A program made the translations under genes and the position numbers. Shown here piece after piece: positions 50,314 through 51,603 of a DNA stretch of 64,000 nucleotides. The notes below the pieces were generated by a model. It made no database searches. It was not told where the DNA came from and was given only the letters and a program-made list of their open reading frames with translations. Source of the stretch: Pirellulales bacterium (lineage in GTDB: Bacteria > Planctomycetota > Planctomycetia > Pirellulales > JAEUIK01); assembly GCA_019745975.1 (NCBI GenBank), contig JAIESQ010000067.1:1-64000 (forward strand), given 5' to 3'. Position 1 is the stretch's first letter. Every line of letters starts with the position of its first letter.

Positions 50314-51603
50314 ATGCGACCGCTGCAAACGTTCCGCCTCGATGCACCCCGTGACTACGCGACGCGCGCAAAGCGGTTGAGCCTAGAAGCAGTTTCAAAA
50401 CCGGCGATGAATCCGCGTCGGGTTCCACTGCTAGCTCGTCTAGCAGTGCCGTATCGAACTTTGCACTGCTGGACAAGCCAGCAGTGGCACCCAATCCCGG
50501 TTATGAAACATCTTCTAGTCATGGGCGCGGCACTCGCTACCGGTAGTTGGCTGTTGTCGAGCGCCGACGAGCCGTCGCGCCCCGCGCCGCCGCGCGCCGT
50601 CGCGATCGCGCCGTCGCTAGGCGCTCAACCACGCACCTACGAGAACGTGCTGCGCCGCCTCGATGACCCCGCGCCGCTGTTAGCCGATCATCCCGAGTTC
50701 GTCGAGCCCGTGCGCGAAATCGCGCGTTACGAGGCGCCGCTACTCGTCGATGACTCCGCTGCCGATCTCGCCGTCCGGGCGTGGCGGTTCAGCTACAACG
50801 CTCGCGGCATCATCGAACTGCCCAATCGCCTGCGGGCGCGCGACACGGCGATCGTCATGGTGCACCCCTGGGGGGTCGACGACGGCCAGGGTTGGCGCAC
50901 TCCCGAGCCGGCCGGCGCGGCCGATTTCTGCACCCCCGAGAAGAACCATCTGGCGGCGCGCCATACGCGCGAAGTGATCGACCCGTTCTTGAAACAATGG
51001 CGTTCGCGGGTGGGGGTCGTGGCCTACAGCCTGCCCGGGCGCGAAGATCCGATCCGCCGCAAGCTCTATCGCTCAGTCCGTGGCCGGCCCAGCGAAGCCG
51101 AGCGCCACGAAGGCGCCGCCGAGCTGGCAGCCAAGCTCAACGGCTTTCGCTACGAAGGAGAACGCATTCCCGCGGTGCTCGAGCTCTCGGCCGACACACC
51201 GGTGATCGACTACTTCAAGCAGTTCCGCGGCCTCGACGCGGGGCCGCGCTTTAACGGCGAAGGTTTCTGGGAGTTGCCGATCCCCGTCACGCGCGACATT
51301 ACGTACCAGCCCGACGACGTGGTGATCTACGACGCCGAAGGCTACGCGCTGCTCCGCGACTTTTTGCGCGAGCAGGGCGTGCGCCACGTGCTCTTGGTCG
51401 GTTACGCCACCGACATGTGCTTCTGCAAGACGACCGCGGGCTACGAGAACCTCTCGGGCGATTTCAACGTGTTTTTGGTGGGCGACGCCACGCTGGCGAC
51501 CTTCCCGGCGAACTCCTCGCCGCGGTACGCCACGAACGCCTCGATCTCGTTCGCGGCCCTCGAGCACCTGATCACGCAGGTCTCGTGGATCAAGCCGCTG
51601 TGA
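50314..51603 (+). CDS. exported isochorismatase-like cysteine hydrolase with palindromic element in its N-terminus
   Basis: 429 aa from the ATG at 50314, which has a clear Shine-Dalgarno (GAAAGGAAA, 5-6 bp away). The hydrolase domain is marked by DTAIVMVHPWGVDDGQGW (catalytic Asp region), VGVVAYSLPGRED, and VRHVLLVGYATDMCFCKTTA, with the nucleophilic Cys in ATDMCFC and GDATLATFPAN after it. Relatives hydrolyse isochorismate, nicotinamide or N-carbamoyl groups; the substrate is unknown. The N-terminus is odd. Residues 1-23 (MRPLQTFRLDAPRDYATRAK) are followed by 44 codons of the 132-bp element (50385-50516), then the hydrophobic core VMGAALATGSWLLSS. An internal ATG at 50503, created in the element's right arm, could be used instead. 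Confidence 0.88.
   Translation: MRPLQTFRLDAPRDYATRAKRLSLEAVSKPAMNPRRVPLLARLAVPYRTLHCWTSQQWHPIPVMKHLLVMGAALATGSWLLSSADEPSRPAPPRAVAIAPSLGAQPRTYENVLRRLDDPAPLLADHPEFVEPVREIARYEAPLLVDDSAADLAVRAWRFSYNARGIIELPNRLRARDTAIVMVHPWGVDDGQGWRTPEPAGAADFCTPEKNHLAARHTREVIDPFLKQWRSRVGVVAYSLPGREDPIRRKLYRSVRGRPSEAERHEGAAELAAKLNGFRYEGERIPAVLELSADTPVIDYFKQFRGLDAGPRFNGEGFWELPIPVTRDITYQPDDVVIYDAEGYALLRDFLREQGVRHVLLVGYATDMCFCKTTAGYENLSGDFNVFLVGDATLATFPANSSPRYATNASISFAALEHLITQVSWIKPL
50385..50516. repeat. 132-bp palindromic element, copy 2 (in frame in a signal-peptide region)
   Basis: The left arm AGAAGCAGTTTCAAA (50385-50399) and right arm TATGAAACATCTTCT (50502-50516) are the same inverted repeats as copy 1, the right one with substitutions. 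Two inner hairpins (CACTGCTAG-CTCGT-CTAGCAGTG and CACTGCTGG-ACAAG-CCAGCAGTG) appear in reverse order relative to copy 1, so the element is inserted in the opposite orientation. It aligns with the reverse complement of copy 1 without gaps. Confidence 0.9.

Follow-up and report, generated by a model that had tools for sequence, protein, structure and literature searches.

Short palindromic repeats carried in frame within bacterial genes have been described before, as have intragenic REPs and fusions of MITEs to signal peptides (PMC10969869, PMC3733652, PMC2229807, PMC2759123), and for one class of such repeats, the GTAG REPs, the ends of the element sometimes supply a TAG stop codon to the adjoining open reading frames (PMC3733652). 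Here, we describe a family of palindromic elements, two copies of which lie in opposite orientation within a 64,000-nucleotide stretch of DNA (hereafter the window) from a Pirellulales bacterium, each of them in frame inside the signal peptide of an exported protein. The genome to which the window belongs is a draft assembly of 6.98 Mb in 204 contigs.

A search of the window for inverted repeats returned, as its longest, a pair at 10028-10161 and 50385-50518 that is 134 nt long, aligns without gaps and is 84% complementary, which bears out an earlier note on this DNA that had reported gap-free copies in opposite orientation at 10030 and 50385. Both copies are imperfect palindromes, their hairpin stability scoring z -7.9 as DNA and -8.4 as RNA against shuffled sequences, and a comparison with Rfam gave no match within the window. 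The unit that moves most likely comprises the 130 bp (GAAGC...GCTTC) that are flanked by a TA dinucleotide on either side, one TA presumably being duplicated at each insertion; the length of 132 bp given previously holds as the net gain per insertion but not as the unit itself, which measures either 130 bp between the TAs or 136 bp from CTAG to CTAG. Copy 2 (50386-50515, forward strand, GAAGC...CTTC) is bounded by CTAG at 50383-50518, with TA at 50384-50385 and 50516-50517, and its arms match the terminal inverted repeats (TIRs) of the IS5 family. Copy 1 (10031-10160, reverse strand) is bounded by CTAG at 10028-10163, its right TA having decayed to TC. In copy 2, the left TIR (50383-50402, forward strand, CTAGAAGCAGTTTCAAAACC) and the right TIR (50499-50518, reverse strand) enclose a REPIN-like core made up of hairpin A (50420-50449, forward strand, GGGTTCCACTGCTAGCTCGTCTAGCAGTGC), a REP of the type found beside the RAYT genes L027, L029 and L031, and hairpin B (50463-50492, reverse strand), which is inverted relative to A and differs from it in the stem by compensatory G-C to A-T changes. 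The hairpins of copy 1 lie at 10054-10083 (forward strand, GGGTGCCACTGCTGGCTTGCCCAGCAGTGC) and 10097-10126 (reverse strand). In the right TIR of copy 2, the TTG of the family is replaced by ATG at 50503, and both this codon and the TTG at 10148 in copy 1 are found where they had been placed. The idea of a palindromic mobile element that keeps the frame and stays open both ways is also supported. In either orientation two of the three frames run through the element, adding 44-45 residues, and the third meets an immediate TAG; LKLLL is what the arm encodes in frame 0. Two further repeats were seen in the window, an inverted pair of 111 nt (5140-5250 and 39403-39513, 71% complementary) and a direct repeat of 85 nt (36635-36719 and 37670-37754, 84% identical) that probably reflects paralogous neighbouring genes.

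Both host genes are on the forward strand, one encoding a ThuA-domain protein (9986-10978) and the other an isochorismatase-like cysteine hydrolase (50314-51603). The first opens with ATG 9986, 14 codons ahead of the element and behind an SD-like AAGGAAG, and the second with ATG 50314, 23 codons ahead of the element and behind an SD-like AAAGGA; from each start the frame runs through the whole element into a hydrophobic segment, giving the signal peptides MIRKPTRDRWRTVA-insert-IVALLATIVVGSTHA and MRPLQTFRLDAPRDYATRAKRLS-insert-VMGAALATGSWLLSSA, respectively. The placement that had been noticed in these two exported-protein genes, in frame between n-region and h-region, is therefore real, and it recurs in 20 clear cases genome-wide. 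A search for insert-free orthologues of the cysteine hydrolase, which the earlier note had advised, found them: L198-L204, with 59-71% identity over the aligned region, lack the peptide encoded by the element, as do the orthologues of an S9 peptidase that carries it at L110, and most orthologues of both proteins have ordinary signal peptides.

Searching the window's own genome revealed dozens more copies at 86-92% identity, and a search of about 80 genome regions with a hidden Markov model (HMM) found 119 places, of which 90 hold the element at full length; 89 of these are unique and have both flanks, so that the genome holds at least 89 full-length copies. In the consensus, CTAGAAGCAGTTTCAAAACC arms are joined by variable linkers to two inverted REP hairpins (GGGTGCCACTGCTRGCTYGYCYAGCAGTGC), between which the centre is again variable; conservation is 95% in the hairpins, 92% in the arms, 83% in the linkers and 79% in the centre. 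The paired hairpins of an element differ from each other by G-C/A-T changes that are compensatory. CTAG is the consensus at both ends, its terminal C being only 67% conserved. TA is kept on both sides in 37 of the 89 copies and lost from at least one side in the other 52, a pattern in which duplication of TA is indistinguishable from a fixed end or from a CTAG target plus duplication; no target duplication longer than TA was found at the flanks of these 89 copies. Flanking inverted repeats were considered as a target signal and set aside, as only four of the 89 copies have them clearly above chance and two of these four lie inside another repeat (GGACGGGAGTCGTTTCCGG). At L057:3042 and L033:2525, the element sits mid-way in another inverted repeat (GGACGGGAGTCGTTT...), perhaps with a hairpin loop as its target.

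We classify the element, from its sequence, as a non-autonomous IS5-family MITE with a REPIN-like core, and it appears to have taken up that core, because the arms bound full IS5-type elements in relatives and the core REP flanks RAYT genes. Its ends, GAAGCAGTTTCAAAACC flanked by TA, are the terminal inverted repeats of IS5-family insertion sequences that are found whole in related planctomycetes. In Lacipirellula limnantheis (L123), the same arms bound a full insertion sequence of about 915 bp with an orfA (PF13340) and an orfB (PF01609; NF033580, IS5), and TAGAAGCAGTTTCAAAACC occurs at both ends of this transposase unit; further relatives (L270-L281) carry IS5-type elements, 880-926 bp in length, whose ends resemble (C)TAGAGNCAGTTTCANAAC. 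As expected of a MITE, the element encodes no transposase, is 130 bp long (below about 300 bp), is present in at least 89 full copies and has TIRs in common with a full-length IS5 element. No intact IS5 element sharing these ends turned up in the 204 contigs of the draft assembly, where the traces of IS5 were limited to a remnant of 40 aa and a single IS5 element whose ends are different. Palindromic cores unrelated to this one are also found between the same ends, both in other planctomycetes and in further phyla (L285, L297 and L307, all three in genome G037, and L131, L129, L133, L153, L150 and L174), as if IS5-type ends were picking up local REPs. Many copies of a repeat starting AGAAGCAGTTTCAAAACCTCGTTTTCACCGG are present in a single chromosome, CP070652 (Deltaproteobacteria bin85), at L166, L117, L157, L158, L160, L162 and L186.

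Around each of the three RAYT genes, the core REP, GGGTGCCACTGCTGGCTTGTCCAGCAGTG, stands in inverted orientation, an arrangement known from classical REP/RAYT units; all three genes have NF047646 as their best-scoring family, with scores just under its curated cut-off of 80 bits. The two inverted REPs of the element match those beside the RAYT genes, as in a REPIN, but the unit amplified here extends past the REPs by outer arms of about 35 bp. The RAYT was rejected as the sole mobiliser, as its flanks lack these outer arms. Core REPINs without arms were found at 45 places in four relatives (G013, G020, G024 and G054), with no clear case of a leader carrying one in frame, and the core hairpin was accordingly discarded as the cause of the leader placement described below, the habit being mainly tied to the IS5-type ends. 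In the genome of the window itself, a few leaders do contain a core or half element (L047, L063, L074 and L096).

The majority of the copies are intergenic and close to genes, and at some gene 3' ends the stop codon is the element's own TAG, from CTAG. Twenty copies lie clearly in frame in leaders, at the junction of n-region and h-region, and with the insert taken out what is left is a normal signal peptide; seven more leader copies were graded probable, and nine lie in frame inside genes, several of them in linkers or between hydrophobic segments. Examples are MPIRKRLPALVST-insert-ATTIVLAAPRVSAAEVP (L048), MRKL-insert-VLSLAVLLTVAGRVVIAARAAEQ (L064), MPISNLTNRAGR-insert-ILALFGLTLTAAAASAAEP (L077), MK-insert-RIGMAVLLISIASVRAGEA (L078) and MLRHRLLF-insert-VLIVVSILNASAHA (L096). 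The leaders are of Sec, lipoprotein (L036, L054:9546, L087), Tat (L063) and pilin-like (L052) types, and the hosts are unrelated, comprising ThuA, isochorismatase-like, HlyD, ceramidase, DUF7133, DUF1559, GGT, S9 and S49 peptidase, DUF1501, PSD1, alpha/beta hydrolase and transporter proteins. Among the 20 clear leader copies the element is entered in frame as CTA in 15, as AGA in 5 and as TAG in none. In G037, which belongs to a different family of the same order, the leader MWRFL-insert-IAIVLVAAAAGGVNGEELQSQ (also given as MWRFL-IAIVLVAAAAGGVNGEE) carries in frame a MITE that has the same ends around an unrelated core. Several individual genes have further features: a gene of about 1980 codons (L051:53-6002) with many hydrophobic segments has two in-frame copies between them, the genes at L088 and L067 each combine a leader MITE with a second in-frame REP or REPIN, and at L044:6523-6658 a signal-peptide-like frame passes through the element and stops soon after, with a phosphatase-like frame shifted downstream, possibly a broken gene or a sequencing error.

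Of the sequence sampled, about 9.4 kb is signal-peptide leader by a crude hydrophobicity rule applied to the first 35 codons, and about 136 kb is intergenic. Set against the 53 other non-genic copies, the 20 leader copies (20/73) are in excess with P=2.6e-8 when scaled by length and P=1.6e-13 when scaled by TA sites, their density being several-fold higher in leaders than in intergenic DNA. The exact length of 136 bp is found in 36 of 36 in-gene copies, and the same length modulo three in 26 of the 53 others (Fisher P=3.5e-8), a test that is partly circular because copies were assigned to leaders and genes using the open frame, the leader set by eye and on openness through the element. Leader copies are no younger by their identity to the consensus, at 0.907 against 0.895 elsewhere (P=0.32).

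The explanation that we favour, and hold to be reasonably probable, is that the element persists in signal peptides since these are discarded together with the insert. An IS5-type DDE transposase, acting in trans on the GAAGCAGTTTCAAAACC ends, would insert the MITE at TA, mostly within CTAG, and reading frames would survive the net gain of 132 bp. Most insertions in coding DNA would presumably be purged by selection; in signal peptides, however, the extra residues would extend only the cytoplasmic n-region, leaving the h-region and the cleavage site intact, with the LKLLL of the frame-0 arm itself helping to form the n/h junction. Signal peptidase would then take off the insert with the signal peptide, and the mature protein would be unchanged. 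Translation probably does run through the element, as in two leaders that use the other open frame (L088 and L096) it has no start codon in the frame used and a native SD-ATG lies upstream, making that ATG the likely start. Several points count against this explanation: an intact IS5 partner is missing from the draft assembly, TA is gone from at least one side of 52 copies, the gene at L044:6523 looks frameshifted right behind the insert, the implied stretch of 50-70 residues ahead of the h-region is unusually long, and tolerance alone may not account for a several-fold excess over intergenic DNA.

That excess is what an insertion preference would predict, in which selection has the lesser part and the IS5-type machinery favours signal-peptide DNA, either for its Leu-rich CTA GNN sequences (Leu-Val/Ala/Gly) at h-regions or because nascent exported genes lie near the membrane, so that leaders would form a true integration niche that elements with different cores would use independently of one another. 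The CTAG sites that were counted as unoccupied in leaders are indeed all in frame 0. They are scarce, however (5 of 498 sites), and with the terminal C only 67% conserved a strict sequence target fails to explain the 22% of copies in leaders; the sampled RAYT-type core REPINs of relatives, moreover, do not have the bias. We regard such steering as possible and unlikely to be the main cause.

Slightly less probable still, in our view, is that the element is kept as a donor of start codons, its terminus TTG AAA CTG CTT CTA providing MKLLL as a new start with its n-region, while the upstream ATG and the interior would be no more than leader sequence. Frame 0 is the commoner one in leaders, copy 2 of the window has ATG where the family has TTG, and in Lacipirellula a full-length IS5-family element (L123:3198-4121) splits csrA after about three codons, its right end, TTG AAA CTG CTT CTA CTG, being one that may restart CsrA as MKLLLLSRKVGQQIRI. 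The new start codon in the right arm that the earlier note had proposed suits this csrA insertion but does not hold up as a general mechanism: the five leader copies in frame 2 lack MKLLL, those at L088 and L096 offer no in-frame start at all, the native SD-ATG still stands upstream in frame, the TTG of the MITE copies has no clear SD ahead of it and insertions in the TAG frame are absent from leaders. That the elements are simply intergenic and overlap wrongly called reading frames is very improbable, for although many REPs placed at NH2 termini have been cautioned to be extragenic in truth, the start having been called wrongly (Di Nocera 2013, PMC3733652), and most copies here are indeed intergenic, the 20 clear cases have no plausible start between element and h-region and an in-frame start at most about 25 codons upstream, their joined flanks form normal signal peptides and all their lengths preserve the frame.

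If the favoured reading, persistence in a discarded part of the protein, is right, it suggests a rule that mobile DNA can live in genes without cost where the protein part is thrown away. This one genome offers no fewer than 20 natural signal peptides whose n-region is lengthened by 44 residues, which makes the limits on n-region length and on signal peptidase directly testable, and gene callers may misplace the starts of such genes. Two features appear to be new, namely a family that is repeatedly found where the n-region and h-region of existing signal peptides meet, and the nesting of a RAYT-type REPIN within an IS5-type MITE; neither was found in the literature searched, which included few subscription papers.

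Of the systems described previously, the Rickettsia palindromic elements (RPE) are alike, by their description, in being short palindromic mobile repeats that lie in frame within protein genes unrelated to one another (PMC10969869, PMC2229807). They are repeats of Rickettsia, the text consulted does not describe a pattern of placement in signal peptides, and the elements here combine IS5-type TIRs with a RAYT-type core. With the REP/REPIN and RAYT systems, such as the GTAG REPs (PMC3733652), the family has in common the inverted pair of REP hairpins, the same REP beside RAYT genes and the supply of TAG stops; here, however, the pair is enclosed in IS5-type TIRs as a unit of 130 bp and occurs in leaders, where the sampled core-only REPINs of relatives do not. 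Other IS5-family MITEs likewise have the TIRs of full-length IS5 elements, a TA/CTAG target and no coding capacity, but the core here is a REPIN rather than a remnant of the insertion sequence, and the intact partner is missing from the draft genome. The RU-1 and RU-2 MITE fusions of enterobacteria (Delihas 2007, PMC2759123) are single or few cases that were read as the birth of new exported proteins, whereas in this genome the element sits at the n/h junction of many exported proteins that already existed, and is missing from the orthologues checked.
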